Below, one piece after another: positions 8,675-59,943 of a DNA stretch of 64,000 nucleotides. Made by a program: the position numbers and the translations under genes. Within the stretch, counting starts at the first letter, position 1, and every line of letters begins with the position of its first letter. The stretch is from assembly GCA_032622095.1 (NCBI GenBank), contig CP136068.1:54956025-55020024 (forward strand). The letters are read 5' to 3'. The notes under the pieces are model-generated. The model was not told the origin of the DNA and ran no database searches. It saw nothing but the letters and a program-made list of their open reading frames with translations. Origin of the DNA: Siphonodentalium dalli (taxonomy: Eukaryota; Mollusca; Scaphopoda; Gadilida; Siphonodentaliidae).

Positions 8675-9050
8675 TCATATTGGGTAAAACATGGTTTCCG
8701 TGATGACCCAGAATATAGGAGTTCGAACTGCGTGGCTCATGATTATTGTAGAGTGTGTACACCCCGACGATGCTGTCAAATATCAGCACCCAGAGTGCTT
8801 TGGAAAGTGCGCATGGGCTCCTAAGGTGGGATCAGGGGTGTCATATTGGGTAAAACGTGCTTTCCGTGACCCGTGATGACCCAGAATATAGGAGTTCGAA
8901 CTGCATGGCTCATGATTATTGTAGAGTGGGTATATCCCGACGATGTTGTCAAATGTCAGCACCCAGAGTGCTTTGGAAAGTGCGCACGGGCTCTTAAGCT
9001 ATGGTCAGGGATGTCATATTGGGTAAAACGAGGTTTCCGTGACCCGTGAT
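8675..9050. repeat. ~170-bp tandem duplication, 2.2 copies
   Basis: Units begin with TCATATTGGGTAAAAC at 8675, 8841 and 9014, giving spacings of 166 and 173 bp. The first two copies are nearly identical over their full length and the third is truncated. The block is internal to the nested element at 7733-9185. Confidence 0.85.
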
Positions 9051-9861
9051 GTGCTTCCGTACATATGCTAGCATGCACATCAATGATGGTCGTGTACATA
9101 CACAGTCTTTTAACATTGTAGGACTATATTAGGGCGTTTAAACGCCGTATTATTATTTTATTTGTGGCGCTATTGTGCTTCCGTAGAAAGGGCTAGGACC
9201 CCAGGAATTGCTTTTTTCATTACCCCAATGATCAGAGTATAAATATACAGAAAATAAGGTCACAATCCTCAACCAGTTCCAGAAACTGATCTAGAAGATA
9301 TTAGTGACGCTTTTCACTTCCGGCGGCCATTTTTAATATATGAAATTTATTCATACCTATAAATAAGGACAACTAAATTATCAATAGAATATAAACTCCC
9401 TGAGTGATTGCGAATTAAAATTTGCCAGGTCAGATATTCAATTTTGGCGGCCATCTTGTCTTTCAATGGTCTCCAAACATGTGAACAATGACTACCTATA
9501 ACATCCATGTGCTCGTGGAATGTTATAGAAAACTGTATTGGCCTATGTTCTCATGGCAAATCATGGACACATCGGTATTGTTCATAGTTTAATTACGTTA
9601 TGCGTGCGTAAATTCACACACTGTACCTTTTCAGATATATCTTCAGCATAAAACAAAATCATATCATCGGTGTCAATATAATGATTTTATCGCAAAAAAA
9701 TCACAGTGGTTTGTTGAAAATCGCTATAAAATGAAAAAGCGCACACACCCGATGCAAACAAGCATAAAAATGTGTGAAATACATCCGTCTATCGGAAAAA
9801 ACATAGTCGGCCAAAAATCCGCATATGGGGTGGGGGTGGCCATATGGTAGCTCACGGTCTA

Positions 9862-10790: not shown

Positions 10791-13365
10791 TATAACATCC
10801 GTATATTATACGTGGCTCGATTACCATGAAGCTATAAACATCCGTATATTATACGTCGCTCGATCACCATGGAGCTATAAACATCCGTATAGTATACGTG
10901 GCTCGATCACCATGGAGCTATACACATCCGTATATTATACGTGGCTCGATCACCATGGAGCTATACACATCCGTATATTATACGTGGCTCGATCACCATG
11001 TAGCTATAAACATCCGTATATTATACGTGGCTCGATCACCATGGAGCTATAAACATCCGTATATTATACGTCGCTCGATCACCATGGAGCTATAAACATC
11101 CGTATATTACACGTGGCTCGATCACCATGGAGCTATACACATCCGTATATTATACGTGGCTCGATCACCATGGAGCTATAAACATCCGTATATTATACGT
11201 GGCTCGATCATCATGGAGCTATAAACATCCGTATATTATACGTGGCCGATCACCATGGAGCTATACACATCCGTATATTATACGTGGCTCGATCACCATG
11301 GAGCTATACATATCCGTATATTATACGTGGCTCGATCACCATGTAGCTATAAACATCCGTATATTATACGTGGCTCGATCACCATGGAGCTATAAACATC
11401 CGTATATTATACGTCGCTCGATCACCATGGAGCTATAAACATCCGTATATTACACGTGGCTCGATCACCATGGAGCTATACACATCCGTATATTATACGT
11501 TGCTCGATCACCATGGAGCTATAAACATCCGTATATTATACGTGGCTCGATCATCATGGAGCTATAAACATCCGTATATTATACGTGGCCGATTACCATG
11601 AAGCTATAAACATCCGTATATTATACGTCGCTCGATCACCATGGAGCTATAAACATCCGTATAGTATACGTGGCTCGATCACCATGGAGCTATACACATC
11701 CGTATATTATACGTGGCTCGATCACCATGGAGCTATACACATCCGTATATTATACGTGGCTCGATCACCATGTAGCTATAAACATCCGTATATTATACGT
11801 GGCTCGATCACCATGGAGCTATAAACATCCGTATATTATACGTCGCTCGATCACCATGGAGCTATAAACATCCGTATATTACACGTGGCTCGATCACCAT
11901 GGAGCTATACACATCCGTATATTATACGTGGCTCGATCACCATGGAGCTATAAACATCCGTATATTATACGTGGCTCGATCATCATGGAGCTATAAACAT
12001 CCGTATATTATACGTGGCCGATCACCATGGAGCTATACACATCCGTATATTATACGTGGCTCGATCACCATGGAGCTATACATATCCGTATATTATACGT
12101 GGCTCGATCACCATGTAGCTATAAACATCCGTATATTATACGTGGCTCGATCACCATGGAGCTATAAACATCCGTATATTATACGTCGCTCGATCACCAT
12201 GGAGCTATAAACATCCGTATATTACACGTGGCTCGATCACCATGGAGCTATACACATCCGTATATTATACGTTGCTCGATCACCATGGAGCTATAAACAT
12301 CCGTATATTATACGTGGCTCGATCATCATGGAGCTATAAACATCCGTATATTATACGTGGCCGATCACCATGGAGCTATAAACATCCGTATATTATACGT
12401 TGCTCGATCATCATGGAGCTATAAACATCCGTATATTATACGTGGCTCGATCACCATGGAGCTATAAACATCCGTATATTATACGTGGCTCGATCACCAT
12501 GGAGCTATAAACATCCGTATATTATACGTGGCTCGATCACCATGGAGCTATAAACATCCGTATATTTTACGTGGCTCGATCACCATGGAGCTATAAATAT
12601 CGTATATTATACGTTGCTCGATCACCATGGAGCTATAAATATCCGTATACTATACGTGGCTCGATAACCATGGAGCTATAAACATCCGTATAGTATACGT
12701 GGCTCGATCACCATGGAGCTATAAACATCCGTATATTATACGTGGCTCGATCACCATGGAGCTATACACATCCGTATATTATACGTGGCTCGATCACAAT
12801 GGAGCTATAAACATTCGTATATTATACGTGGCTCGATCACCATGGAGCTATAAACATCCGTATATTATACGTCGCTCGATCACCATGGAGCTATAAACAT
12901 CCGTATAGTATACGTGGCTCGATCACCATGGACCTATAAACATCCGTATATTATACGTGGCTCGATCACCGTGGAGCTATACACATCCGTATATTATACG
13001 TGGCTCGATCACCATGTAGCTATAAACATCCGTATATTATACGTGGCTCGATCACCATGGAGCTATAAACATCCGTATATTATACGTCGCTCGATCACCA
13101 TGGAGCTATAAACATCCGTATATTACACGTGGCTCGATCACCATGGAGCTATACACATCCGTATATTATACGTGGCTCGATTACCATGGAGCTATACACA
13201 TCCGTATATTATACGTTGCTCGATCACCATGGAGCTATAAACATCCGTATAGTATACGTGGCTCGATCACCATGGAGCTATAAACATCCGTATATTATAC
13301 GTGGCTCGATCACCATGGAGCTATAAACATCCGTATATTATACGTGGCTCGATCACCATGGAACT
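10791..13365. repeat. 43-bp satellite array, about 60 monomers, with higher-order repeats
   Basis: The monomer runs ACATCCGTATATTATACG, then TGGCTCGATCACCATGG, then AGCTATAA (43 bp). Each contains a 13-bp palindrome (CGTATA, T or G, TATACG) and usually a CCATGG site. Variants repeat in blocks. About 10818-11589 is repeated as 11590-12361 with a shift of exactly 772 bp (18 monomers less a 2-bp deletion seen as GTGGCCGAT). A 215-bp (5-monomer) periodicity appears at 12699, 12914 and 13129. Because 43 is not a multiple of three, all frames stay open in stretches. These are not genes. The role is unknown; satellites like this can be centromeric, subtelomeric or interspersed. Confidence 0.97.
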
Positions 13366-14188
13366 ATTGTTGTTATAACTCTTAACACTCGAGTGTGTTC
13401 GCTTAACAACATTGTTGTTATTCAAGATATTAAGAGGTGTACCAAACACGTTCTTGCACTTTAACTGAGCTCGAGGAGAGTTTCAGTTTTCACACATTCC
13501 GTTTTCCAAACAATTAACATTAGACATACATGTATGGACTTGTGTGACGAATGGAGTGGGAGACGCTCTTCTGTTCGATTTTTGACAGAACATTTGACGT
13601 AGCTAGTCATTCTGTTACATCAGTGATCGATGTGAATTAAGTTTCCTTACAACTGCTCATTGTACATATGTTTACACGAATAGATTCTTTGCTTAACGCT
13701 AATTAATCAAACCAATTGATTGATGTGGCATGTGGATACACTGTTCTCCAAATATACCGGAGCATATCCAAACCGTTTCTAGTGTTTTTGGTAAAGTGAA
13801 TCAAAACGAATCGTGCCGTAGGGGTCAATCTTACTTTAAAAAATGCCGAAGGATAAACATGTTCGCTGAAATGTGGTGAATGATACACGGGGTATGAAAT
13901 CTGAAATGACGTGGGTTAATTTTTTCGTCTACCACGATTTCTTGTAGAATAATTGTTTACGTTCTAGTTAACATTAGAATGAACTGAAACTTTCAGTAAT
14001 ACAACTGACACAACTGAAAGAAAAACATGTGTACCCTTCAACACATAAGTTAGATTCCTTTTTGTTTTCGATGTGATTATTTTCATCACTTCGGGAAGTT
14101 GTTTCAAAACATAGAAAGTAGTATAATTATGAGCAAAATATATTAATCAGTATACTTATATTGATACTTCAGCTTATACTGGTCTCCA
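13366..14188. other. Unassigned spacer
   Basis: No convincing coding frame was recognised. At 13369-13440 there are short inverted words built on TTGTTGTTA and TAACAACA beside the satellite edge. Confidence 0.3.
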
Positions 14189-19510: not shown

Positions 19511-19659
19511 TTCAGTATCGAATGTTCATCTGTTTTTTTTCTATCTCCCACATTTCCCACGATGTTTACGTCGTAGTGAGGACATCTCAGTTTTCATAGC
19601 GAATGCCCCATTAATTACATTTTGGGGCGCATATATACTAGTTTCTCTTTAAAGCAGTT
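19511..19659. other. Unassigned
   Basis: Nothing recognised. It may be remaining Penelope-like 3' sequence. Confidence 0.3.
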
Positions 19660-19905
19660 TTAATTTAAATCTTTCGGACGTCGAATCGGTTTAAGAGAGA
19701 TGTCGGATAACTAATTATCTGCATAATATAACATATAACTTTTTACAAGGTGTTTGTGTTGGATAGTGTTTTTGGCTCGGATTGTTAGTGGCTCCAAAGC
19801 ATTGTGCATGGAGTTATGTCTCTACAATGGAGAGTAACTTCTGTACTATACATATAGCTTATATATATATACTGTCAATTAGGCTCATAACAGGAGAAAA
19901 ACACG
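19660..19905. repeat. Dispersed repeat R19, diverged partial copy
   Basis: This matches the middle of the long repeats at 22281-23229 and 27446-28353. It runs from CTTTCGGACGTCGAATCGG through GGCTCGGATTGTTAGTGGC to TCAATTAGGCTCATAACAGG, with scattered substitutions. It shows that those repeats belong to a dispersed family and did not arise only with the LINE they flank. Confidence 0.8.
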
Positions 19906-19918
19906 TACCACCTTTTTG

Positions 19919-19952
19919 AAATAAATAAGTAAGTAAGTAAGTAAGTAAATAT
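19919..19952. repeat. AAGT tetranucleotide microsatellite
   Basis: Five to six tandem AAGT/TAAG units follow AAATAAAT. Confidence 0.85.
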
Positions 19953-20435
19953 TTTATTATGGCATATCATCATAAAATGTGTTACACATATAAAATTAAA
20001 TAATAAACAATAATATGTCATATGGTGGTGGCATGACCATATGGTGGTCTTCCTGCCGCCACCATTTGGAAATGGAAAATATGGACAAAAATATGGAAGA
20101 TATACAAATTTATACAAAATTGGCATTTATGCAAAATTGACATACTGGGTGGGGTTCAAACCATATAATATAATGAAATAATAGTGACACGAGGCTTTGT
20201 GTGGGTCTGCGTTGTTTACAATTTGATTAAATTTTTTTAATCTTTAGCTATAAAGTTCAAAAATAAAACTGTAAAACTGTTCAAACTAGACAAAGTTCTA
20301 ATCAGTTTGCACCAAATAGTTAATATTTGCACTGAATATAGGCACTCAACAACACAGAAGATTGAAAAAAAAAAAAATATCTACATGCATATATACACAT
20401 AAGCGCATACATACATGCATTTACATATCTACATA
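19953..20435. other. Unassigned AT-rich spacer
   Basis: No feature was recognised apart from a short palindrome (CATATGGTGGTGGCATGACC at 20019 repeated in part at 20039) and a poly(A) run at 20365-20377. Confidence 0.3.
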
Positions 20436-20453
20436 TATAAAACCCGTCGTCTG

Positions 20454-20494
20454 TGTGTGTGTGTGTGTATCTGTGTATCTGTGTGTGTGTGTAT
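20454..20494. repeat. (TG)n microsatellite
   Basis: Interrupted TG repeats (with TATC breaks) occur at the proposed 5' side of the Helitron-like element. Confidence 0.9.
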
Positions 20495-21280
20495 AACTCG
20501 GTCACGCTTTTGACGCGTTTATAACTTTTTAACCATGAATCCAATGTGGCCCAAATTTGTACCACGGCCTATAGTTTGTCATATAAGGTGACTCACCAAA
20601 TTTCACGCCGATTGGTCCAAGCAAACCTGAGATCTAACATGGTCACCAAATGCAGTATCTGCACTCAAGTAGACACTATTTCTTATGACGTTTGTCGAAA
20701 TGACGTCATTGACGTCGAACGCAAACCAACACTTGCTTTGCTATTGTAGGCGAAACTTCCATGCGCTCTACCAAAGCGTTGTTGGAAATAGGCGCTAAAT
20801 TAATGTGTCAGTTCAGGTTCAGTGTGAATTTAGGTAACGAATGTTGATTTTGTCGCAGAAGTGCATGAAAAGTGGGGTGCAGAGTTCTACCGTCGTTGGG
20901 AATGGGTGGATGTAGTGGTGTGCAGAGTCAAGACTCGAACGTTCGTCGGGAATGGGTCTAATATGGTATTTTAATTTGCCAGTTGTGTTTGAACATAAGT
21001 AAAGAATGCTGTCTTTGATACGAAAGTTGTGCATTGAGTGTGGAATCGAAAGAGTACCGGTATACACGGAAGATGGCGAAGGGACACAGTCTGACCTCCC
21101 GCCAGTGGGTACCGTGAACTCAGTAAATTCGCCGGAACGCAGTTGGAAAAAGCACATTCCCGGGACAGGCCTAATAATAGGGCCTACAGTGTAAACAATA
21201 CTGCCGACGCTAATTAATGCTCTTTTAATCTTTCGGTTGAGTGCAAATCTGATACAAGAATAAATGTTTAAAAGATCACA

Positions 21281-22060
21281 ATGCGCGAAGCGCACGCAGT
21301 TTAAATTCATATAATGTGCGCGAAGCTCACAAAGGGGCTGCGGGCCCTTCACCCGCTAAATAAAGGTTCCGAATTGAGCCTGTTTCAGTTAGTATAGATT
21401 AAGTAAAATATCTTGATTGTTGCGTTCCATATATGTGCATGCATATACGTGGGTTGGGGAGATGATGGTGGGGTCAAAAATACAGTTTTATTGAAATAAA
21501 GTGTTCATACAAATGGGCCACGCAGTGCAGGGCGTGTGATCAATAGGCTGCATGTTGAATACAGGGGCCGTTTAAAATGTGCTGCAAGCTCCCTATATGT
21601 GCGCGAAGCTCACGCAGTTTAAGATCATATAATGTGCGCGAAGCGCAGAAAGGGGCTGTAGGCCCCTCCCAATCTAAATAAAGATTCCGAATTGAGCCTG
21701 TTTTTAGTATAGATAAAGTAAAATATTTTGATTGTTGCGTTCCATATGTGCATGCATATACATGTGTTGGGGAGATGTGGTGGGGTAAAAATACAGTTTT
21801 ATGGAAATAAAGTGTTCATTCAAACGGGCCGCGCAGTGCAGGCGTGTGATCATTAGGCGGCATGCTGAATCCAGGTTCCAAAGATCGTTCAAATATACAT
21901 CAAGCTCCCGAATGAAGGCTCCTGAATTGAGTATGTTTCAGTTGGTGTATAGTATTTAAATAATATACTGATTTTGTTTCGTTCAATATGTGCATGCGCA
22001 TATGTGGATTGGTGTGTAGAAATACAGTGTTAGTGAAATAAAGTGTTCCAACGCGCATCC
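21281..22060. repeat. ~316-bp tandem repeat, 2.5 copies
   Basis: Units start with ATGCGCGAAGCGCACGCAG (21281) and ATGTGCGCGAAGCTCACGCAG-like text (21596). The marker TCCGAATTGAGCCTGTTT recurs near 21367 and 21684, with a truncated form near 21915. Each unit holds GCGCGAAGCGCA and GGGGCTGYRGGCCC palindromes. The same motifs are dispersed at 4580-4690 and 29205-29305. Confidence 0.8.
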
Positions 22061-22280
22061 AGTAACAAAAAGGAGAAGCATGACCATTCCATGTGTCCAT
22101 GAACGCGGACACTAGAAAATAACAAAGAACATTTATATACCCGTCATTTTGTGACGGGCAATCCCCTAGTATATATATATTCATCAGGCACATCTTCTCA
22201 TTTTTTAAAATTCATTTTACTAATGAGAGAAGGTCGTTTTATAGTTATAATTTCTTTCCTTATTGGAAGTTCAATTCCAA

Positions 22281-22991
22281 AAGTTAGAGTTAATTCTATC
22301 TTTTTAGTACAATCTGGACAAAACTTGTTTTTACACTTAATATTCGAAGAAATATGTTTGTTTAACCTTGTTTATTTATTTAATGGCAATTTCCTAATTT
22401 ATTTACCAGGATCGGTATGCTTAAATGACTCCTCTGCGGAGCATTTAGATCAGCCCTCAAGGCAAGCACGCAGGGGTGACAAACATTAATGTTCACAAAA
22501 CTTCAAGGACAGTGAAAGAAAGTTTTTATTTTAAACCTTTCGAACGTCGAACCGGTTTAAGAGAGATGCCTGGCAACTAATTATCCGCATAATATAACGT
22601 ATAACTTTTAACAAGGTGGCTGTGTTTGGCAGTGTTTTGGCTCGGATTGTCAGTGGCTTCAAAGCACTGTGCATGGAGTTATGGATCTACAATGGAGAGT
22701 ATCTTCTGTACTGTGCAGATAGCTTATACTGTCAATTAGGCTCAAAACAGGAGAAACCACTTACCATCTTTTTGAAAGAAATATGTTTGTTTAACCTTTG
22801 TTTGTTTATTTAATGGCAATTTCTTAATTTATTTACCAGCATCGGTATGCTTAAATGACTGCTCAGCGTTGCATTTCAATCAGCCCTTAAGGCAATTAAG
22901 CACGGACGGGTGACTCACATTTAACGTTCACCATATTGAAGGACATTGAAAGAAAGAAGTGATTTATTCCACTGAGCCCGTGCCACATACA

Positions 22992-23082
<91 letters not shown>

Positions 23083-23229
23083 AGTAGGATCTGGGTGTGG
23101 TGACTCGGGGTATCCTGGCGGAGGTTATAACAGCGTTAGTTTTTTCAAAATTTTGATTTAAAGGGGTACTTACTGTACGCCATTTTCAATAAATTCCCGG
23201 TGATAACAACGATCTATTATCGATACTAT
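22281..23229. repeat. Long direct repeat, left copy (949 bp), repeat family R19
   Basis: Begins AAGTTAGAGTTAATTC and ends TATTATCGATACTAT. It is almost identical to 27446-28353, differing mainly in the AT microsatellite length (23000-23080 here, shorter there), a 4-bp TTAC insertion near 23169 and a few substitutions. Internally, a segment near 22346-22520 recurs at 22774-22960 (about 428 bp apart). It lies exactly against the 3' tail of the LINE, and its partner lies exactly against that LINE's 5' end. Confidence 0.95.
22998..23080. repeat. (AT)n microsatellite, long allele
   Basis: A pure AT/TA dinucleotide run of about 80 bp. The copy at 28162-28207 is about 37 bp shorter. Confidence 0.95.
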
Positions 23230-23369
23230 TATTATTATTATTATATCTTTATTTCCTCCAATCATTGAAGATTTTATAAAGTATATAACATTGTTATGCA
23301 CATCAAGTTGAACAAAATAATATTATCAATAAATGTTATAGAATATGAATAACAATTAGTATGATGAGA

Positions 23370-23503
23370 AAGGCGTATTTACACATATGTACAATGATGG
23401 GTTTGATGACCATGATGACTATGAGGATGATGAGGATGATGATGTTACTCGGATGGCCAATATTATGGTACGATGATGAGATGATGTTGAGATTGGTGAC
23501 AGA

Positions 23504-23534
<31 letters not shown>

Positions 23535-23690
23535 ATGCTGATTACCATGATACTGTTGATGGTGATGATGGTGATGATGATGAAGATGGGGAAGAAGATG
23601 GGATAATGTTGTTTATGATGGTGATGATGATGATGGTGATGATGATTATGATGATGATGATGATGATGACGATGATGGTTGTGATAGTTA
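23370..23690. repeat. (ATG)n / (GATGAT)n microsatellite in LINE 3' UTR
   Basis: Imperfect trinucleotide repeats fill this part of the 3' UTR. On the minus strand they give a histidine-rich open frame that I do not regard as a gene. Confidence 0.9.
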
Positions 23691-23781
23691 TGTTGTAGAT
23701 ACCACACTACCAGTAATATGTGTACTCCGTGCACACATTTTGTTTACAGAAGCATGCACGCATAATTATAGTGACGTATGA

Positions 23782-26700
23782 TCACGGTGGTTTCAAACGC
23801 CACGTTAACATATTTTGAACATTGGAATGAGTTGTATTCATTCCGTTCGCTTGCGCGAGAGTGTTGTATGCCAACCACAGTTGTGCAGTAAATCCGATCA
23901 TGTAGTTAGTAAAACAATCAATATCATCAATAACGTGTTGTATGCTATCACTGACGTGCGTGAGATGAAGGGATATCATGTCATCATCATTTAATTCGTC
24001 AACGGCAATGAAACAAGGTATACCATAACGGTCGATTAAGCCAAAAAACATGTTGTTTCGTATCAGTGTCAACTCCTTACAGTCAATTAGGATGTGTTTG
24101 ACTTTGTCGACATACATGCGCTCACAATTAGGACATTTCCCTTCATCTCGGCAAGTGGTTGCATTGATAACCAGTGCTGTCGTGGTGTAGCATTGTTTGT
24201 TTTGGGGAAATTTTCGGCATAAACGCCAGAGTTTGCTCATACTGAGCGTATGATGAATTCTCAGAAAGCGGGTGAAAGCTATGTCTGACGTCACACGCAT
24301 GTTCCATTCTGCCTCATTGACAATTTGTATGTTAGTCTTTACACGAGATTTCCATATCTCTTTTGATGGGAAGAGACCAGAACGTATGTACTCATCGACG
24401 ATATCCATAAGATTATATTTCTCAACAATGGCAACAACATCGCCTATAAACGAGATGTGTGTTGCTGTTGAGTGAACAAAGTGATGAAGTCTACATTCAA
24501 AAATAGCTTTGCATGCTTTACTAGGTGCTAAGCGACAGAGCGATCCAAACAATGAAAGTTTTCGGGCTTCTACACATGATTCAAGCGGGTATGTTCCAAC
24601 CATGCTTAGTACTATATCAGTTCTGCAAGCAGTCGGTAGACCCTGTATACGCTTCAAACAAAAACGGTGCATCCGTTCTATTTTAATCCTGTTTGTCGCA
24701 GAAGTGTCAGAAAGAAATTCAGAACCATAGAGGCCACGCGACAGTACAATAGATTTGTAAATGATCATAGAGCTTTGGGGTGTTATACCGCCTGCATGTA
24801 GGCCAGCATTGGTGAGCATCAAGTAGGTAGAACGCAATTTTGAGCATATGCTTTCAGTGAGTATATTTTGAAAGATTGTTTTATGCAAAGGAATGCCAAG
24901 ATGCGTTATTGTGTCCGTTTCTAAAATTGGACGGTCGTTAATTAACCAAGTTCGTGGAGAATGGTATATTCTGGGCTTCACATTGAAGACAATAACTTTA
25001 CATTTATTTTCATTGTATAAAAAACGCCACTTTCTGCTATAATTGCTGCATACATCACATAGCTTCTGTAAGCCAAGAGACGAGAGCGATAGTAACGTCA
25101 TGTCATCTGCCTGGGTTGGAGAACAACAGTTGATCCCATGCAATCTTAGACCAAAATTCGACAATTCAAGTTCTTTTAGTAGATCATCTATATAAATAGC
25201 ATAGAATATTGGTGATAAAGTTCCCCCTTGTCTGGTACCTTGACTTATTGTTATTACCCGAGAACTAAGATTTCCATATCGTACGGTACATGAGACTCCA
25301 CGGAGAAATTGACTGAATATTTGCAAAATTTTCCCATTTGCTCCACGTTCTTGTAGTTTAAACAAAAGACCATTAACCCAGACAGTATCAAACGCTTTGT
25401 GAGCGTCAAGAAAGCATGAAAAGAGGCGAGAATTATTTTCTAACGCGTATGAGATACTTTCCTGGACTATATAAGAGGACATCAAACAGCTTATGTTTTT
25501 CTGAAAGCCATGTTGCAGAGCATGTGTCACGACGAGAGTTGGGACATTTCTTTCAATGCGGTTCAGAAGAACTCTTTCAAAGAGTTTATAAAACACAGGT
25601 AGTAGAGTTATGGCCCTGTAACTATCGAATTTTGATTTAGGCTTGCCACCCCCCTTGTATAATGAAACAATGATCCCAAGCTTTGCTTGGTGTGGAATAT
25701 GTGAATAATCGAGCATTAACGATATAAGTTTAGCAATATGAGCATGTAGCTGTGTGCCGCCGTATATAAGATGTTCGTAACATAACATGTCAGATCCAGC
25801 TGCCTTGCCCTTTTTCACTGACTTCAGAACTGAAGTAACTTCTTCCGGTGACACTGTGTATGTAAGTATATCATCTAGAGCACCGTGTACCGGACTATCA
25901 AGGAGTTTCTCTACTCGATTATTGACTTCTATGTGGTGTGCGTTGTCAAATGTGTCAGAACTAAGAGGCGAATAAAGATTTTCATAGTAATCTGCGAACG
26001 CATTAATTATATCAGTTGGTGTTCTTAGGATATTGCCATTGACTTCAAATAAGTTACTGGTTGTTTCCTTACGATTCGATCTGATTGAGTTGAACTTCTT
26101 GAAAAACAATTCCTGATCCATTTCAGCGGCATGGTCAATATCATTATTTTGTGTGGACATGAATTTCGAGTTACATCTACGTAATTCTCTCCTAAACCTA
26201 CATTTTGATGCTTTATAATTAGCATAGCTCGCATGCGAATCACCTCTTGGTCTACCTTCGGATAACCAGGCATTTCTAGATGTACGCATTTCGCGGTGTA
26301 ACAATGTCAACGAAGCATTCCAGTATGGCTTCAAATACGGTTTGAACGATTTTTTTGGAACGGACGCTTCCGAAGCTGACTGTATACTCGATACGGTTTT
26401 GTTATAACAATGGTCGAGGTCGCGTGTATCAGATGCATTAAGTTCAGGCAATGAAGACTCGATCGAGGATCGATAATTTGAAACCATAATTTCGTTAGCT
26501 AGAAATTTTCTCCAATCCCATGTAGCTTGTGGAGATTTCCCTTGCGAGTGTACTACGTCATATGATATTGTCATGAGAATAGGTCTGTGATTTGATGTAT
26601 TCTCCTCATTGTCATCAAGGACAGCTACGCGAAGAATTCGCTGAATATCGTCTTGGTGAACAAGAATATGATCAATGATTGTCCCATCTGAAGAACCGAG

Positions 26701-27297
26701 AGGAACAAACGTTGCAAGTCGCCCCGTGCAACTATTGGTGTTGTTTGCCGAAATATATTCACGGTCGTTAAGAAGTTTATGGAAGCAAAGATTACGCGCA
26801 TCTCGTTTGCTTAAATTTCCGTTGAAATCACCCATGACAATGCCCAATGATGAATATGTAACGATTAGATCTGACACATTCTGAACGTACTCAGCATAGA
26901 ATTCAGTCGAGTAGTTTGTTGATGGGAGATATACTTGAAAAACATAGAGGAAATTATCTGGGGAGAGCTGTAATTGTATGCCGCATATTCGATCATCGTC
27001 GCATGAAATAACAGATATGCAATTGTCATATCGTTTGTGCCAAAATATTGCGATACCACCCTTATATCTTCCCCTTTGAAGTGGGAGTCGCTGTGAGAAA
27101 TCGCACACGGCGCTGTGAGAATACGATTTACATATCGTATCGAGAAAGTGTACGTTATGTTCATGGAGCCAATGCTCGCTTATTCCAAAGATATCTATAT
27201 ATCCATCACTCAGCAACCGACTGAGGTAGCTACTACTCCCCAATATTCCAGTGACATTCCATGTGCCAATAGTCAACAAGTTTTCATTAGTAGGCAT
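23782..27297 (-). CDS. LINE endonuclease-reverse transcriptase polyprotein (1171 aa)
   Basis: The protein would nick target DNA and copy the element RNA into the genome (target-primed reverse transcription). Residues 1-245 form an apurinic-type endonuclease with GTWNVTG at 11-17, EHW from 41, GDFNG at 156-160, DHI at 209-211 and SNHRPI at 235-240. The last is usually SDHxP, but the histidine is kept. Residues about 490-805 form the RT with GKAAGSD, YRAITLLP, FLDAHKAFDTVW (Asp631), QGTRQGG and QADDMTLL (Asp731-732); QADD replaces the usual YADD or FADD. A zinc knuckle C1055-x2-C1058-x9-H1068-x4-C1073 closes the C-terminal region. No stop or frameshift interrupts it, which suggests recent insertion. 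The start is the first Met upstream of the endonuclease core. Confidence 0.92.
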   Translation of the reverse strand: MPTNENLLTIGTWNVTGILGSSSYLSRLLSDGYIDIFGISEHWLHEHNVHFLDTICKSYSHSAVCDFSQRLPLQRGRYKGGIAIFWHKRYDNCISVISCDDDRICGIQLQLSPDNFLYVFQVYLPSTNYSTEFYAEYVQNVSDLIVTYSSLGIVMGDFNGNLSKRDARNLCFHKLLNDREYISANNTNSCTGRLATFVPLGSSDGTIIDHILVHQDDIQRILRVAVLDDNEENTSNHRPILMTISYDVVHSQGKSPQATWDWRKFLANEIMVSNYRSSIESSLPELNASDTRDLDHCYNKTVSSIQSASEASVPKKSFKPYLKPYWNASLTLLHREMRTSRNAWLSEGRPRGDSHASYANYKASKCRFRRELRRCNSKFMSTQNNDIDHAAEMDQELFFKKFNSIRSNRKETTSNLFEVNGNILRTPTDIINAFADYYENLYSPLSSDTFDNAHHIEVNNRVEKLLDSPVHGALDDILTYTVSPEEVTSVLKSVKKGKAAGSDMLCYEHLIYGGTQLHAHIAKLISLMLDYSHIPHQAKLGIIVSLYKGGGKPKSKFDSYRAITLLPVFYKLFERVLLNRIERNVPTLVVTHALQHGFQKNISCLMSSYIVQESISYALENNSRLFSCFLDAHKAFDTVWVNGLLFKLQERGANGKILQIFSQFLRGVSCTVRYGNLSSRVITISQGTRQGGTLSPIFYAIYIDDLLKELELSNFGLRLHGINCCSPTQADDMTLLSLSSLGLQKLCDVCSNYSRKWRFLYNENKCKVIVFNVKPRIYHSPRTWLINDRPILETDTITHLGIPLHKTIFQNILTESICSKLRSTYLMLTNAGLHAGGITPQSSMIIYKSIVLSRGLYGSEFLSDTSATNRIKIERMHRFCLKRIQGLPTACRTDIVLSMVGTYPLESCVEARKLSLFGSLCRLAPSKACKAIFECRLHHFVHSTATHISFIGDVVAIVEKYNLMDIVDEYIRSGLFPSKEIWKSRVKTNIQIVNEAEWNMRVTSDIAFTRFLRIHHTLSMSKLWRLCRKFPQNKQCYTTTALVINATTCRDEGKCPNCERMYVDKVKHILIDCKELTLIRNNMFFGLIDRYGIPCFIAVDELNDDDMISLHLTHVSDSIQHVIDDIDCFTNYMIGFTAQLWLAYNTLAQANGMNTTHSNVQNMLTWRLKPP

Positions 27298-27445
27298 ATT
27301 GAGAGGTGATATATAAGAAGTTGTAAAAATATATGAGTAATAAGATGTGAGATATGAGCTAGAAAAGAAAAACTTAGGTTTATAACAGTAACAGTGACTA
27401 TTGGGTTTACGAGATAGAGTTACTCTTCTTGCTGGTAAGCAACAG

Positions 27446-28158
27446 AAGTTAGAGTTAATTCTATCTTTTTAGTACAATCTGGACAAAACTTGTTTTTACA
27501 CTTAATATTCGAAGAAATATGTTTGTTTAACCTTGTTTATTTATTTAATGGCAATTTCCTAATTTATTTACCAGCATCGGTATGCTTAAATGACTCCTCT
27601 GCGGAGCATTTAGATCAGCCCTCAAGGCAAGCACGCAGGGGTGACAAACATTAATGTTCACAAAACTTCAAGGACAGTGAAAGAAAGTTTTTATTTTAAA
27701 CCTTTCGAACGTCGAACCGGTTTAAGAGAGATGCCTGGCAACTAATTATCCGCATAATATAACGTATAACTTTTAACAAGGTGGCTGTGTTTGGCAGTGT
27801 TTTGGCTCGGATTGTCAGTGGCTTCAAAGCACTGTGCATGGAGTTATGGATCTACAATGGAGAGTATCTTCTGTACTGTGCAGATAGCTTATACTGTCAA
27901 TTAGGCTCAAAACAGGAGAAACCACTTACCATCTTTTTGAAAGAAATATGTTTGTTTAACCTTTGTTTGTTTATTTAATGGCAATTTCTTAATTTATTTA
28001 CCAGCATCGGTATGCTTAAATGACTGCTCAGCGTTGCATTTCAATCAGCCCTCAAGGCAATTAAGCACGGACGGGTGACTCACATTTAACGTTCACCATA
28101 TTGAAGGACATTGAAAGAAAGAAGTGATTTATTCCACTGAGCCCGTGCCACATACATT

Positions 28159-28210
<52 letters not shown>

Positions 28211-28353
28211 AGTAGGATCTGGGTGTGGTGACTCGGGGTATCCTGGCGGAGGTTATAACAGCGTTAGTTTTTTCAAAATTTTGATTTAAAGGGGTACTGT
28301 ACGCCATTTTCAATAAATTCCCGGTGATAACAACGATCTATTATCGATACTAT
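27446..28353. repeat. Long direct repeat, right copy (908 bp), repeat family R19
   Basis: This is the partner of 22281-23229, in the same order and orientation, and begins directly after the LINE 5' end. Beyond 28353 the sequence continues through the right part of the inverted-repeat element at 28285-28886, whereas the left copy breaks at the same base into the LINE tail. This places the LINE insertion point inside that element. Confidence 0.95.
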
Positions 28354-28886
28354 ATAGAAATATAAGTAATTTGAGTCGAAGATGTATTCTGTAAACGCTC
28401 AGGTTAATAGGCTATCTTAAAATTTAATAATTTAAAAGTTAATAATTTAATATAAATTGATTTTATGGCTCCAGCCATAAAATGGCGTCTCTTAAAATTG
28501 GAATTTCCGTGTACAAAACGTAATCAAATTATAATTGAGGGATACTGGATTAATAAAACAATTGCACACACGATCGTTTGAAACATTATGCTTATACGGG
28601 GAGAAAACCCAAGCCACTCATTGACTAGTGACCATACACTAACTTAAATGAGTATATGGGACTACTAAGCATATAATATAATGTTTATTTGATTCATTTG
28701 GTTGAAAACTGTACAAAAATTACTCGACAACGACAATTTGTATTTTTGCATTCCGGTAAATTTGCCATCCGTAACAATACTTCGTACTCAACAGACTTTC
28801 AAAAAATGGAAAAGTTGTTACCTTATTCTCCGACTCGGGGATTATAGAAACCAACAACAACATATTGGGTACAGTACCCCTTTAAA
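28285..28886. mobile_element. Short inverted-repeat element with TTTAAAGGGGTACTGTAC ends
   Basis: The 18-bp terminal inverted repeats are exact: TTTAAAGGGGTACTGTAC at 28285-28302 and its complement at 28869-28886. It is about 600 bp with no recognisable transposase. Its left end is also present in the left R19 copy (near 23157-23180, with a TTAC insertion), so the LINE sits about 70 bp into this element. Confidence 0.65.
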
Positions 28887-30688
28887 CAAATTTAATTCGA
28901 TAAATAAATAAAATGTTTTAATAAGCACAATATGAGTCTATTTCAGAATCACATAAGTCCCGTATGAACATATGTGAATATTAAGGTCCAATATTAACCT
29001 ATATATACAAGGATATGTACGCCCTTTATATACATGTGTTTTCACTGTGGCCCGCGCCATCCAACATAATAACGGGTGTATGTCCACTATGGCCTCATTC
29101 CAGAATCAATGTTTAGGTTAAATGTGAACATATCTGCACGAGGATATATTGAAGTAGCATAATAGATATGATCTCTATATACACAAGAATAGGATATATC
29201 TGTCATGTGTGAGAAGCGTACACATGGGCCGCAGGCCCCTTTGTGCAGGGGCCGTAGGCTCCCCCGACGCTGAATAAAGGCTCCGTAAGGGAGCCTGTTT
29301 CAGTTAATATACGATAAATAAATGACATTGACCGAAATTAACTATGTCGTGCACTAAATCTACGTCCCTCGTCAATATATACATAATTATTTCAATTGGT
29401 TCACTCTGCCTTGTGTGAAATTTCATGCTTCAACCAGGAGAGTCACGATTGAACAACGTGTCGCCCACTGCCCACTGTGGAAGCGGTAAATTTAATCATT
29501 TATTCGTGCACTTTATAAGATTATGCCATTCCAGGATTGATTTAATTGGCGATGGGTTCGTGGGGGGCAATGATGTATAGGGTTTTATAGCGTGGGAGAT
29601 ACGTGTAGCTGATAATGCCTACTTAAATGTCAGCAAGTGCCCGATGTGTTGTAATGACAAGACTTATCAGTAACCACTGTTTCTGACCGACCTTCTGATT
29701 TAAACACCGATTGCTCCATATTATGTGAAGCACAATGACAATTTGTCATATCAATGAACGAGATAGCGCTCAAACACTCAAATTTCGTTCAGAATTACAG
29801 CAGCTACTCTCGATTATAATGTCAGCCGCATAGCCACGTGCTAATTTTCAGAGAATGTTAGTGTATTGTCAGCACAACCGTGCTAGATACGACACTTGGT
29901 GGCAAGGCAACAATAGGCTATGTCGGACAGATGGAAAATTGACCAGATTTATTACTAGACGCAACACTCATATATTTTGAAGACTGACAATTAGTGGCAT
30001 CGATATATAAACATCGTCCAAATACTCTTTTCAATGTTGCTGATTAAAGTGGTAATTGGAAACTTTATTTTTGGATTACTGCAACAAGTAGAGGTTTTGC
30101 ATCGGCATGTCTGCTAACATCTGTAGTTACCAAAAATGGATTACCTCTAGATATCATGTCCGAAAGTGGTCAGAATACCTACGGTTGGCTAATGCATGAT
30201 ATGTGGGTAGTTCAGATATTCTCCATGGAAAACATCATCATCAGTTTTTGATCGTATAGAACGCTCCCACACTGATTAATAATTAAAGGTAGCACAGCTT
30301 GTGTACGTTTTATTACCAAAGCTTGAAGTCAGTAGTGATCGCACATAATAGTTTAGCATGCCCTAGACATATACCTATTTCGGGGAAAAATACACAGAAT
30401 TACTGTGCATGTATCCTAAACATTGATGGTTCAATATAGTAAGCAGTGAATGTTGGCTGCTGTTTGTTTAAACATACTTTATTCCAACACAAAGACAATA
30501 AACACACAGATACATAAACATAACAAATTAATAGTATAGTTGACATAAAATTGTTGGTGTATGTTATCGGAGATTTGCAGGCAGTTTATATCGGTTGGAA
30601 ACGGAGACTACAGTAAGCTATAAGCTTTTTTTGGTCGTTCCGCTCACTTTGAAAGATGATACCCAATATTCATAAAATGGTAATATGT
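28887..30688. other. Unassigned spacer
   Basis: No convincing gene was recognised. One dispersed motif block lies at 29205-29305; the rest is unmarked AT-rich sequence. Confidence 0.35.
29205..29305. repeat. Dispersed repeat fragment with GGCCGCAGGCCCC and AGGCTCC hairpins
   Basis: It contains GAGAAGCGTACACA, GGGCCGCAGGCCCCTTTG, then GCTGAATAAAGGCTCC, a GTAA loop and GGGAGCCTGTTTCAGTT. The same motifs occur at 4580-4690 (inverted) and 21281-21960, indicating one repeat family. Confidence 0.7.
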
Positions 30689-31079: not shown

Positions 31080-31671
<592 letters not shown>

Positions 31672-34012: not shown

Positions 34013-34693
34013 ACTCCACAATTTATTGTTCAATTCAATGCCCATCACGAATAACAAAAAAGCAATACACTTAGCATCGTGTTTTCAAATTGGACTTTTA
34101 GTTTGTTGTAGTATGTTTTTAATTAAAAAGTTATATAATAAACCCACGTATGCGTGGGCCGGGAAGCGGCCCCGCCGTAGGCTATGTAAGTAGCGCACAC
34201 ACACTCGACGCCGGAAGAGCTTGAATCTGCAATAAATCGACGGCCACTTTTTGCCGAATGATCCCAAAATAACTTTTTTTCCATCTACATGTCAATGTCA
34301 ATATCCTTGACAAACTTCATTGTCATCTCAAAAATGGCACGGCCTGTACTAGCCCACATTCTAATGGATTGAATTTTGAATCCAAGTTGACTATATCAGT
34401 GTTTTGTCATCACACAACGGGACACCAGATGAAAAAAGCCATGATTTCCTCACAAAATGATTACAACACTAAATTTTTCACAGAATCAATTTGACAAGCT
34501 GGATGAATTGAATAATGAACTGGAAGCTATTGTGCACAAGTTGATAGTAGTTTAGTTCGGCATGAGAACCTTCCCATCCCAGTGAGTTTTATTCAGTACA
34601 CTGTATTTAGATATATATGTTTAGTCATGTATTGCACCTATTTAAGCTATATTGTATTTGCCACAAAAACATTTCAATATTATGATGTTATAT
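34013..34693. other. Unassigned, with hairpin at 34151-34166
   Basis: CCCACGTATGCGTGGG at 34151-34166 is a perfect stem with a 4-base loop, followed by a CCGGGAAGCGGCCCC segment. This resembles repeat-element ends but cannot be assigned. Otherwise no gene was recognised. Confidence 0.4.
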
Positions 34694-37600
34694 AGTCAAG
34701 GAGATATTGGTCGACCTCTGCACCGCCAGGACTCAACTTCACCCAACTAATTTTCTTTCTTAATGTCTCCTCTAATGTTTTTCGGTTGTTAACAAGAAAA
34801 AATGTGGCCGCAGAGACTCCAGACAAGATCGCGTCCATCATGGCGGCCATTGTTTTTATAGGCACCAGGTCTCTTTGATTGCCATTATAGTAAAGATTTT
34901 ATCACATACGGTCTTCTTTTCCGCTCGATTCGTTATGCGAATATACAACCCTTACAAATTAGCCAAAAATCCGACACCAAAATCCAATATGGCGCCCAAG
35001 ATGGCGGCCGAAATGTGAAAAATTGCTAATCTTTTGACACTTCACCACATTTCGTTTGTCTCTGTGGGAAAACGTGGACATCTTGGAGTGATGTTATACA
35101 TTTATCGTATAGAAGAGTCATTTATGAACACAATGGGATCATAAAATACATTCCTTGTTGGATATTTTTGTCTGATATCACGATTTCCCAAATGCCGGTA
35201 TAATCCGGTCAAAGCCGAAACGACGCTAATAACGCAATGTCTGTTTTGAATCAATGAGTGTTTAATATTGCTATTATAACTCCACCCATGAATATATATG
35301 TGCACGAGATACCCGGGCCAAAATGGCCACCAGAAATTGAAAAATCGCCGAAAATCGCTGATTTTAACATCAGTGAGCGTTATTGTCACGACAATTCCAC
35401 ATCTGCTTACTATTGTGAGTTGAGAACACTGAGTCGATCGAAGAACTGTCCTTATACCACATTCAAATAAAAGTTTCCAAATCCAAAATTGCGCCCACAA
35501 TGGCGGACAGATTAAAAAAAATCACCGAAAATCCCTCATATTCACACCATTGGGCATTATTGTCGAGACAACTCCACCCATGCTTACAGTTGAGTTGGAA
35601 ATACTGAGGTGAAGTAACTACCTTACATCTCATGCAAGAAATGGTTTTCCAAATCGAAGATGGCGGTCAAAATGGCGACCGAAATTTGAAAACACGCCTA
35701 CATTCCATACTTTTTTTTTACGATGCGCGTTATTGTTTCGCGAATTCTACCCACCATTACATGTAGATATGGAATATTGATGTGAAGTATTCATTTGAGT
35801 TTGGCAATTGATACTCAGTCAACGTGGCGGCTAAACTGGCGGCCATAAATTGAAAAGAAATCGATATTTTCACATACTAAATTCAACTTTTTGTCATAAT
35901 ATTGATATGTATGGACGAAACTGTACATACACCATCTATTAGTTCAACTTAAAACATATCAAAACACATAACATAGCTCGTGACATTCTGGGAGGATGAA
36001 AACCCACCATTAACATCGCGATGTCGAAATCTCCACTTAACGCCGATAATGGCCGTAACCGTAGGGGCGCCGAATAGACATATTAGAACAATTACCTGAT
36101 AACATATTCTGAGTTGCCACGTCCATAATTATCTGGACCATATTCCATTTCTTTGTCTGATAAATCTAGGTCGCTCACATCGACAAAGTATTCAACACTT
36201 CCTGGGAGAAGGGTTCCTCTAATCATAACGTTTCACACAATTCATTTCCCGGTGTCAAGCTTACGATTTTAAATATTTTCTGAATATGGGATTGGTGTGT
36301 CATCTTGAACTAGAATGCAATTGGTTGATGAGTATACAAGCTTACAGAAGGTCATCTCTGTGTATGTCTTTCTCATACCCCATGGGGATAACGACATGTT
36401 CACCTGGCGAAATTCCCAGGTAGCTAGTCACTTCTCAATAGATGGTTCGTCAACTCACAAACTTAGCGAACGCATAATTGGTATACGTGGACAACTTCGG
36501 CAGTGTTTCGAAGGTTGCTAGATGTCTAATTTTCTTGGACAGATGCCTATCTGCTAAGGAGAAGACCATAATGTACCGATTACCCACACTTCTTGACCAT
36601 TGTCTTAAGCAAACTGTGTGACGTCCCGCAGTCATCTCGTTGAATAACTCCCAGCAGAGAAGAACAATACTCGGGGTGCTAGTTTGTGGACATGCGCCAC
36701 GATAGTGGGAATGAGGTGGGCCACGGTATATACCACCCCTACACAAGGTGCATGTTTCAGACATAGAATGCCATGCGTATCTGTGTTTTGGTGTGGTGCG
36801 ATTGTATTTCCACATCCGTTTCGAAGCCGTTCTGAATCAACTTGACCAGACGTATAATTGTGTCTGGATAATACTATGCTAGCCTCTCCCATAACAGTCG
36901 GATGCGCTATAGGATGTCTGTATTGAATGAAGGTATTAATTAGTGTTGTTATACACTCTCAGGGTTAGTGTCAGTATGTGGGGGTATTACTCAAGAAAAT
37001 GTACTTCGCGTTGAACATTTCACCCGTATTGATGGCATTTGTACTTTCTTGAACCATACCGACCACCACCCAGCGTGAGTATGACATATCAACCAACTAT
37101 CAAAGACATCGTCTTTAAGACTACACCCCAGTCTGGGTGGGGCTTATATAGTAGTAGCCAATGGTACACGCCTGGTCCAGTTGATTAAGAACGGCTTCCA
37201 AACTGATGGGAAGATACAATCTTAGCATACAAGGAAAGCAAAGCCACGCATGAGATCCTGTTTGAATCTAAAACATATCCCAAGAAGGGGCGATGCAGTC
37301 ATGGTCCCATTTCATGACATATGCCCACAAACTATCACCGCGTGTATCGTTATTATCTGTTAGGATCTGTTCGGACGCCACCAAGATTGTTTTTAGGATA
37401 ATGGTCAAGACGTGTGGGTATATTATGCATTATGGTCTTCTACGGCTTAGCAGAAAGTCATCCGTCAAATGTATGTTAGGCTTTCAACATTCGAAGCCAT
37501 ATACAGAAGTTGTCTGGGTACGTCAGTGCATAAGATGAGTATGTGAGTTGATGAACCATATATTGAGAAGTAGCTGGATGGGAAGATCACCAGATGTACA

Positions 37601-39387
37601 TGATGTTATCCCCATTAGGTCACCAAAGCTGAAAAATACACAGATAGAGAGGTCCTTCTGAAAACTAGTATACGCATCGACCGCACACCTTTCTAGTTTA
37701 TCGCGCAATATGACGCTCAGATCCCATATGTATCATCTGAATTATACCATAAGCTACCACGGATGAAGCTCGCCAAGAATAAGGATAAAAATTCTCAGCT
37801 TTCGAAACAAACACGTGAGCTGGACACTGGCATATGTATTGTTTGAAACATTCCGATTAGTGGGACCCTTCTACCAAGAAGAGTAGAATTGTTGGTGTGA
37901 GCGAGATAGATTAATATGGCGAAGAGACGGAAGCTGGTCCAGATAATGCTGAATGTGGCAAATCAGAATAAGTTCAGGTACTGTTGTTTTGATTCTTGGA
38001 AGTCATAATATGACTATTCGGCGCGCACATATACGGTTACGGCTATTATGGGCGCTTAGTGGAGAATGGATTTCGAAATGCCACATCGCGATATTAATTG
38101 TGGGTTTTCGTCGTTCCAGAAGTACACGAGCCATGTTATGCGTCTTGCTAAGTTTTAAATTGAACCGATAGACGATGTATGTACAGTTTCGTCCATAGAT
38201 ATCGATATTGTGACAAAAAGTTGAAACTAGTATGTGAAAATATCGATTTCTTTTGAATTTCTGTCCGCCAGTTTAGCCGCCATCTTGACTGTGAGTATCA
38301 ATTGCCAAACTCAAATGTAGACTTCATATCAATATTCCATATCAACATGTAATGGTGGGTAGAATTCGCGAAACAATAACGCCAATTGTAAGAACGTAAA
38401 GGAATGTAGGCGTGTTTTCAAATTCCGGTCGCCATTTTGGCAGCGATCTTCGATTTGGAAAACCATTTCTTGCATGAGATGTAAGGTAGTTACTTCACCT
38501 CAGTATTTCCAACTCAACTGTAAGAATGGGTGGAGTTGTCTCGACAATAATGCCCAATGATGTGAATATGAGGGATTTTCGGTGATTTTTTTTAATCTGT
38601 CCGCCATTGTGGGCGCAATTTTGGATTTGGGGACTTTTAATTGGATGTGATATAAGGACAGTTCTTCGATCGACTCAGTGTTCCCAACTCACAATAGTAA
38701 GCAGATGTGGAGTTGTCGTGACAATAACGCTCATTGATGTTAAAATCAGCGATTTTCTTGCGATTTTTCAATTTATGGTGGCCATTTTGGCAGCCATCTT
38801 GAATATATTCATGGGTGGAGTTATAATAGTAATAACACTCATTGATTCGAAAAACAGACATTGCGTTATTAGCGTCGTTTCGGATTTGACCGGATTATAC
38901 CGGCATTTGGGAAATCGTGATATCAGACAAAAATATCCAACAAGGAATGTATTTTATGGTCTCATTGTGTTCATAAATGACTCTTCTATACGATAAATGT
39001 ATAACATTACGCCAAGATGTCCACGTTTTCCCACAGAGACAAACGAAATGCGGTGAAATGTAAATAAAATAGCAATTTTGGCCGCCATATTGGATTTTGG
39101 TGTCGGATTTTTGGCTAATTTGTAAGGGTTGTATATTAGTATAACGAATCGAGCGGAAAACAAGACCGCATGTGATAATATCTTTACTATAACGACAATC
39201 AAAGAGACCTGGTGCATATAAAACAAATGGCCGCCATGATGGACGCCATCTGTCTGGAGTCTCTGCGGCCACTTTTTGTTTCTTGTTAACAACCGAAAAA
39301 GATTAGAGGAGACATTAAGAAACAAAATTTGTGGGGCGAAGTTGAGTCCTGGGGGGGGGTGCAGAAGTCGACCAATATCTCCTGGAC
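34694..39387. mobile_element. Foldback element 2: 4.7-kb palindrome with ~2.2-kb arms
   Basis: The left arm (34694-about 36880) and right arm (about 37135-39387) are reverse complements over nearly their whole length, with scattered substitutions and small indels. Example pairs: GGAGATATTGGTCGACC (34700-34716) with GTCGACCAATATCTCC (39367-39382); GTGGCCGCAGAGACTCCAGAC (34804) with GTCTGGAGTCTCTGCGGCCAC (39252); CATCGCGATGTCG (36015) with its diverged complement near 38080. The unpaired centre is about 250 bp. Within each arm, units of about 165-170 bp recur, each opening with a GGCGGCC-type word (about 34980, 35322, 35486, 35657, 35820). No transposase was found. Confidence 0.85.
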
Positions 39388-42300
39388 TAATAAGGATGAG
39401 GGAGATACCGAGATACACCAATTGAACTTGTTTACTTCACTTTTAAATGTAAACACAAGTCTAAATGTTGTTCCTCCTTCACCCTTCACCCGTATCACTG
39501 ATAAGGCCTGTGCATATTTAAGCCACATGGTATTTGCGACTTGAAAGTTTCAATATTATGATTTTAAGGACGAGGGAGTATTAATGTGGCGTTTATAAAT
39601 TCCATTCCTGAACGTCCATTCATGTCAGAAGAAAATGAAAACACTTGAAATCCTCACTTTAAATTGCAGCATTTGTGATTTGTAGAATTGTTCCTCAGTG
39701 CATGACAGTACATTCATGCAATTATTAGCAAAATTATTGTAGTCCAATGTTTTAAAACGTTACCTTACATACTGAAGAGAAACAATCAGGTGTCAAGTAC
39801 AGGCACCGAAAGAAAGCGATGAAAAGGAACCATCCATTCTCCAAGAGAGTTGGTAACACAGCACATAATCAGTTCATAGTATTTTTTCGAACCCATATGT
39901 GTATGCTAAATTAATTTTTACAAAAGACGTATCCACAGGTAACATACTGGAACGTTAAAACCCTTGTTACTTCAACTGTGAAGATTTGTGCGCAATTATT
40001 AAATTGAATTACGTTTTACGAGCATGGCCAAAAACATAAACAACATAGCCTGCACAATATAAAACGTATTTACATATTTGTATACTTACATATTATATTT
40101 CAGCCATTATTAATTTATTTTAGGTTAAGCGTCAATCGCCACATTATTGGCACAATACCATTGTCCCAATCGATGTCCCTTGTTGAAAATCAGATAAGAA
40201 CGATTATTCTTTAAAAGTCCCTAAATAGAAGCTTCATTCACATAAATGAATTTAAACACGTTTGGTGTTAATATTTATGTTATATTATAATTACATTGTA
40301 CTATTGAATTATCATCAGCATTTCGCATTTAATTCTCATAACCTAAATCGGCCAAGGGCCGAGAATTGGCATGGTGCCATATTTGAACACCATTGGACGG
40401 CGGCCATTTTGGATCTGCGTGGGGTAGTGTGGTGTTAATATTTAGATTGGCTTGGGGCACCCTAAAACACCATTTGTTTGACCTAAATCGGCCAGGTATA
40501 TATATGTTAATAAGGAATAGGGAGTGGAAGTCACCACTAATCGCCTGCTAAAGTCTTATACATTGTATTCTGTGCGGAATTTAATTTCTGCCGCAGGTCA
40601 ACATTTCGTTTCTAATCACAGCTTGAAACTCGCGTCTTTGAACAGTATCCCAATATTTATCACCAAACTCTAGGCAGAGGTATCTCTCTTAGCTTCGACG
40701 ATTATCACTGCCACAAGGACATGTTGGTTAGGATTTCTTACATGTTCTTAAAGACATATTATGGACTTGTTCGGATTTCCTAAATTGATAAGTTAGCAAT
40801 CAGGCGCTATGCCAACATAGGTGTGTATTGTCAATTTGGATTAATATTCGTAAAACATAACTACTTTGATCAAGATTATTCTCCTTTTCTATTTGATCAC
40901 CCTACCGGAGTGTTTCACATCACTTTAATTATTTTAGGATTAAAATTGTTAACGCCTGGCTCAGTTCATATTTGTTTTACCAATACCGAAAGCATTACAA
41001 TTATTGCATACTGTTAGTGGTCAAAATGGGATAACAGGTGACTAAATATAGTTCCGACGATTTATTGCGCTAAAAATAGACTTGTTTGTAAATGCAAGTT
41101 TTTTTGTGTGCAAATTACGACATTCGAAAGATTTCAATAATGAGATTTGCATCTGGCTGACAACATGTTAAGGATACAATAGGAGCAAAACAAGCTTTAA
41201 AAGACAGGCAGATAGAAGCACTTAGATTAATAAACCTTAATTTAATAAACTGTTAATTTACCAGTGGGTTACTGGAAAAGTTTGATTTATTTGATGCTGC
41301 CAAATTTGATAAAACAAAAGAAATGTGTGCAAAATTCGACATGTCTAGTTAAAAGTCCACTTAATATCACCAAAGAGGATCAAGTTTCCAATATATATCG
41401 TAGTGATATGGAGAGGACCTCGTACATGGGAAGACTGTGTTTGACATAATTTGACACTGCGCAACAGCACAACCGGATGAGTAGGACTTGGCTAATGATT
41501 GGAAGTGAAAGTTTCCAGAAAATTGTTTCTGCTATTGTGATAGACGAGTGTCATGCTGAGCTTGAACCAAATATACTGTCTACACTGAGCTTTGAGAGGC
41601 CAAATATATAGAGTAGGCCTACCAGTAAACGAGAAATCATGTCGGTAAGATTTTGGACAATGACCCACGTACGAACGTAGTCGCCATAGTATGCGGTTAC
41701 TTTTTTATGTAATATTCAACCGAATAACGGTTGATATTGATAACACCATAGTTAGTAACCTACCGAGAAGACACATTTAATACAGGTGTAAATACAGGAG
41801 ACATACCTACTAAGTTCCTTGTTGGGCGGCTGTTACCGGCAAAAATGGAACGGGCCAGGAATGTGACAAGTTGTGTTATAGTTTCTAACAACTCGAGCCA
41901 GGTCAATTCTCGCCAACAAAGGAAGATTAAGGGGAGATGTCATGGTATATGCCTGGGAACCTACTATAGCCCTAAAATGCGATAATTTACAGTTCATATA
42001 TATACTTGTATTGAGACACACTACCAATATAATACAGTCTTAAGCAACACAGACGTGTGAACCAAACGCGACTGAACCCAATTTCCAGGACTATCCCTCT
42101 GGAGAACCATTTGTGGGGCCCGTCAATTTAGAATTCCACCTGTGGTGCAGTGTACCCAATGAATCTGAGTGCCCTTTGAATCATTCAAAGTGGGTTGATT
42201 CAACTGTATTATAAAACGCATTTGACCCCCATCGAACCAAATGCCAAAATGGGCCCGCCTCCGTTTCCAATAATATGTTGTGTGTTAACTATTCTTCAAA

Positions 42301-59936: not shown

Positions 59937-59943
59937 AGAGATA

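Follow-up and report, generated by a model that had tools for sequence, protein, structure and literature searches.

A LINE between near-identical 0.9-kb direct repeats: a candidate kilobase-scale target-site duplication

Introduction

The target-site duplications (TSDs) of LINEs have lengths that peak at 3-15 bp depending on the clade (PMC4245944), and second-strand cutting by inserting LINEs has been called poorly understood (PMC6895275). The closest described system in which much longer TSDs are seen is human L1 in cells deficient in nucleotide excision repair (NER), where TSDs longer than 100 bp were found in 4/7 cases for XPA, 21/23 for XPC and 22/28 for XPD, with a stated median of 1495 bp for L1 TSDs in NER-deficient cells (PMC5223499). 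In the same report, TSDs of more than 100 bp made up 3/9 in complemented cells and never more than 10% in HeLa cells, and its authors propose an unrelated nick at a distance as the source of long TSDs and expect recombination between the repeats to make these insertions short-lived (PMC5223499). In HeLa, extremely long TSDs are said to accompany 5'-truncated L1, and full-length inserts to have TSDs of 10-17 bp (told in PMC2912911). That paper's own survey, of insertions specific to human or chimpanzee, took in only TSDs of 5-30 bp, the authors noting that longer ones need further study (PMC2912911), so that survey could not have seen kilobase events.

Other relevant systems include (i) the R9 element of rotifers, which has a 126-bp TSD (cited in PMC6895275), and (ii) plants, in which paired nicks are reported to lead to tandem duplications (Schiml 2016, Vaughn and Bennetzen 2014, as cited in PMC7464560). 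A natural kilobase duplication made by a LINE is not named among the literature matches listed for this analysis, which is no proof of its absence from print. Here, we analyse a 64-kb stretch of DNA (hereafter the window), in which a LINE with an intact open reading frame (ORF) sits between two direct repeats of about 0.9 kb.

Results

The LINE and its protein

The LINE insertion spans 23230-27445 on the minus strand, with copy A of the flanking repeat (hereafter R19) on its 3' tail side and copy B on its 5' side. It carries an ORF (27297..23782, minus strand) that is intact and encodes 1171 aa, with an Exo_endo_phos domain at residues 11-217 (6.2e-10) and an RVT_1 domain at residues 553-802 (1.1e-26), both above the Pfam cut-off. 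This combination of endonuclease (EN) and reverse transcriptase (RT) domains in one ORF assigns the element, as predicted from its protein, to the non-LTR retrotransposons (LINEs) with an apurinic-type endonuclease. Ten distinct PDB sequences were matched by the ORF, all named as R2, LINE-1 ORF2 or reverse-transcriptase proteins. Strings chosen by eye were located in the EN (SEHW, GDFN and SNHRPI) and RT (DAHKAFD and QADD) portions, which are putative motifs of the respective domains; QADD, as the apparent third RT motif, departs from the usual F/YADD. A CPNC...H...C string lies near the C-terminus, at residue 1055.

No second copy of this LINE was found in the 64-kb window. In a scan for relatives that used one protein as query, and thus reaches close relatives only, 5 stretches from viral_contigs and 12 from genome_contigs matched one of the six exact peptide patterns, and none of them encoded a relative. 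Rfam gave 0 matches at the gathering threshold across the window. A second LINE-like reverse transcriptase is found at 51283-53141 (RVT_1, 3.2e-34); it is split over two overlapping frames, the switch falling between 52317 and 52419.

The flanking repeats are nearly identical

In a self-BLAST of the window, 22278-23229 pairs with 27443-28353 on the same strand, and trimming this pair to exactly matching ends gives copy A at 22281-23229 (949 bp) and copy B at 27446-28353 (908 bp), both on the plus strand. Global alignment of the two yields 908 aligned columns with 2 mismatches (22410 G/C and 22888 T/C) and 41 gap columns, of which 4 fall in a TACT duplication at 23167-23170 of copy A and 37 lie before 23086, at an AT run that a tandem-repeat finder counts at 85 and 47 nt in the two copies. 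The initial annotation was thus right about the coordinates of the copies, their direct orientation and their abutment with the LINE, and about their differing mainly by the length of an AT microsatellite and a 4-bp insertion, to which the alignment adds only two substitutions in the 908 aligned columns. So few substitutions, together with the intact ORF, are consistent with a young LINE.

The R19 pair is the longest of the 33 same-strand repeat pairs printed by a scan of the window for repeats of at least 25 bp with separations below 7000 bp, run with low-complexity filtering and counted after removal of the rows that begin in three tandem arrays. Three of these pairs, of 952, 141 and 111 bp, are both at least 100 bp long and at least 90% identical.

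Three differences between the copies could be polarised, by the bases of the paralogous inner repeats described below or by the mate arm of an inverted repeat, and in 3/3 the derived state is in copy A. This is what would be expected if a single gap-filled strand, with its errors, had been inherited, and the pattern fits that history, with three changes being too few for proof (the chance is 1/8 for a given copy and 1/4 for either copy).

R19 ends inside another element

The right end of R19 (28353/28354) falls inside a MITE-like element at 28285-28886, which is bounded by 23-bp inverted repeats (28285-28307 and 28864-28886) and is called MITE-like here by virtue of these repeats. The arms include 18 bp of perfect match, as against a longest perfect arm of 15 bp in 1000 dinucleotide shuffles of 28209-29000. 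Copy B runs unbroken into the remainder of this element, and copy A holds a truncated left end of 73 bp (23157-23229) that stops at the LINE and has the TACT duplication (4 bp) within its inverted repeat. No second full copy of the element was seen in the window. Since the right end of R19 lies within an element that is continued by copy B only, R19 has the look of target DNA that happened to lie between two cuts rather than of a mobile unit, and its right end marks it as apparent host target sequence, not as sequence of the LINE.

To the left of R19, other flanking DNA adjoins copy A alone, as copy B begins at the LINE. There is a weak suggestion that this left end too is an arbitrary cut point, as it may cross an open frame belonging to a possible old coding remnant. 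A short peptide across the left boundary gave three Pfam matches, all below the cut-off (best E 0.04). By tblastx, the left-boundary region matched 53076-53138 over 21 residues (52%; E 1.6e-6, the search space being very small), which proves no continuity across the boundary, since the match lies wholly inside R19.

Junctions with the LINE

Direct repeats adjoin both ends of the LINE, as a target-site duplication demands. At the 3' junction, which reads ...GATACTAT up to the boundary and TATTATTATTAT beyond it, a tail of ATA/TAA units begins at 23230 against copy A, with TAT as the overlap between the primer end and the LINE tail. A microsatellite tail with primer overlap is as expected of target-primed insertion, which this junction would support. 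The 5' end of the LINE lies at about 27445 against copy B, and its last 3 bases (27443-27445) could be assigned to copy B instead, with one mismatch.

A short TSD of the ordinary kind was looked for at the inner junctions and none was seen: the longest word common to the 41-bp windows compared is 5 bp and is displaced from the junction. Such a TSD would have suggested insertion into a pre-existing tandem pair.

Internal make-up of R19

R19 is a composite of about 65 bp, an inner repeat a1 (176 bp), a segment M (~255 bp), an inner repeat a2 (181 bp), an AT run and a tail. In self-comparison, a1 lies at 22347-22522 in copy A and 27512-27687 in copy B, and a2, which is 86% identical to a1, at 22776-22956 and 27941-28121 (all on the plus strand). 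M, at 22523-22777 with ends known to about 10 bp, is a separate interspersed repeat with a second copy at 19658-19930 (85%). It sits without evident spare bases between a1 and a2 (22347-22956, and likewise 27512-28121), which makes a1 and a2 an older long direct repeat around an insert, in a layout like that of the LINE, and shows an earlier duplication at the same locus.

What the copy at 19658-19930 shares with R19 is M, its inner ~260 bp, at 85% and nothing else, and no direct repeats flank it in self-comparisons of the window. The initial annotation had seen in it a third, diverged R19 copy at 19660 and had taken R19 for a repeat family; the window does not support this, as only M recurs there, and the idea of R19 as a repeat family was abandoned with M as its one recurring segment in the window.

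Other repeats in the window

At 31098-31467, a ~93-bp (AG)n run (~31235-31327) lies between direct repeats of 137/140 bp that are 94% alike, one of which has an extra ATGT, a 4-bp tandem duplication as in the R19 copies; the arrangement resembles a duplication whose copies are separated by a microsatellite filler. Perfect 111-bp direct repeats are found at 56966-57076 and 59940-60050, 2.9 kb apart, with GGATA tails and a relation to 53380-53509. They were set aside as a candidate for another long TSD, since by eye they are probably the 3' end of one LINE, present in two distinct copies that are each 5'-truncated, and the copy at 59940-60050 has apparent 7-bp AGAGATA flanks, also judged by eye.

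The remaining repeats include (i) a 43-bp minisatellite at 10794-13367, with 60 copies and 95% matches, (ii) a large inverted repeat at 34688-39393, with arms of 1.6 kb at 86% and 52-bp direct repeats (81%) at 34639-34690 and 39515-39566, and (iii) a possible Helitron-like element at ~20430-22168, with a TG-rich start nearby, a CCCGTC...GACGGG hairpin end and CTAG before T, all seen by eye and resembling features of the Helitron family.

Discussion

A probable single insertion with a long target-site duplication

We regard it as probable that the locus records a single target-primed LINE insertion, whose two cuts were ~0.9 kb apart and left a real TSD of ~0.9 kb. The giant target-site duplication proposed in the initial annotation gains support from the end of R19 inside the MITE-like element, the abutment of both copies with the LINE, the lack of a short TSD at the inner junctions, and the tail with its primer overlap. 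The geometry of the locus, the near identity of the copies, the position of the right end of R19, the tail at the junction and the intact ORF can all be read directly from the DNA. Points that weigh against such a TSD are a local background of duplication that is not low, the earlier duplication that produced a1-M-a2, the shortness of the TSDs at which the clades peak, and the weakness of the evidence for an arbitrary cut at the left end of R19.

The proposed sequence of events is as follows. A LINE of the apurinic-endonuclease type would insert once, by target-primed reverse transcription, making its first cut within the MITE-like element, on the plus strand of the window and just past ...CGATACTAT (position 23229 for copy A and 28353 for copy B). 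The freed 3' end, ...CGATACTAT, would prime on the LINE RNA at its tail of ATA repeats, through the TAT overlap, and the other strand would be opened where R19 begins on the left, at a distance of ~0.9 kb instead of 5-20 bases. Fill-in of the single-stranded arms, 0.9 kb on either side, would then duplicate the whole stretch around the new LINE. From the layout of the locus we infer the distance between the cuts, the distant nick or break that would have supplied the second end, the fill-in and the action of the LINE's own enzyme, as well as the order of the duplication relative to the LINE insertion.

Other routes to the same layout

The main rival concerns that order: the 0.9-kb stretch would first have been tandemly duplicated by a repair or replication error, and the LINE would later have landed at the junction between the copies. 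The window does hold other tandem duplications (two copies of a 173-bp unit at 8698-9051, and 1.9 copies of a 300-bp unit at 57926-58480), and tandem duplications arising from paired nicks have been reported (Schiml 2016, as cited in PMC7464560). The LINE, however, would have had to hit the junction within +-3 bp, that is, 7 positions in a 1816-bp pair or ~0.4% by chance, and to leave no visible ordinary TSD, which makes this order of events unlikely.

A bolder version of the single-insertion reading is that very long TSDs are a regular product of this LINE or of its host, the second cut being untied from the first in this lineage (e.g. through altered nucleotide excision repair), in which case the 176/181-bp repeats around M and the 137/140-bp repeats at 31098-31467 would be earlier products of the same habit, provided that their inserts are themselves retroelement or repair insertions. 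We consider such a rule distinctly unlikely. Against its holding genome-wide speak the M copy at 19658-19930, which is without flanking repeats, and the copy at 59940-60050, with its apparent 7-bp flanks.

It is very unlikely, in our view, that the duplication was coupled to the insertion in another manner, with the LINE cDNA joining a break ~0.9 kb off on the sister chromatid or another pre-existing break. A sister-chromatid break has been proposed for an L1-linked tandem duplication of 22.6 Mb in a tumour (PMC7058536), and the route yields the same final sequence. This makes it inseparable by sequence from a single insertion with a distant second cut, but at a distance of 0.9 kb a nick on the same molecule would be the simpler source of the second end.

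That R19 is the terminal repeat of an element (LTR-like or Penelope-type), with the LINE and its flanks mobile together, we hold to be highly improbable and disfavour: the layout does resemble an internal region between long direct repeats, but the protein is an EN+RT LINE protein, and R19 stops, on its right, partway through a MITE-like element whose remainder lies past copy B alone. Scarcely credible is an assembly or haplotype artefact that duplicated R19, since, prone as AT microsatellites and near-identical repeats are to misassembly, the copies differ by two substitutions and a 4-bp insertion, and a falsely duplicated flank of a normal LINE would not be expected to leave each end of the LINE touching a different end of R19.

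Significance and comparison with known systems

A single insertion with a ~0.9-kb TSD, if confirmed, would (i) be a clean natural case showing that insertions with kilobase TSDs can persist in a genome, and (ii) suggest a simple screen, that is, for young LINEs lying between long near-identical direct repeats. Insertion with a long TSD is also a route by which LINEs could duplicate exons or regulatory DNA.

The natural element that invites comparison is R9, a relative of R2. Like R9 of rotifers, the element described here is a natural LINE with an unusually long duplication, but R9 is rDNA-specific and duplicates 126 bp (cited in PMC6895275), whereas this LINE encodes an Exo_endo_phos endonuclease and its TSD would be about seven times longer. 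The plant tandem duplications made by paired nicks are similar in that adjacent nicks are repaired into direct repeats, and differ in that the plant joins carry no retroelement (cited in PMC7464560). The L1-mediated tandem duplication described in human tumours shares with this locus the coincidence of the duplication boundaries with a single L1 insertion, but that event was somatic and of megabase scale (PMC7058536). The likeness to human L1 in NER-deficient cells extends to an EN+RT LINE, a 3' tail (found in most of the L1 inserts) and TSDs of 0.2 to several kb; those, however, were marked events in cultured, repair-deficient cells, and the present case is a LINE copy in an assembled genome, presumed to be germline (PMC5223499). 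The locus would thus add a case from nature to an outcome already known, as a rarity, from human L1 in cultured cells.
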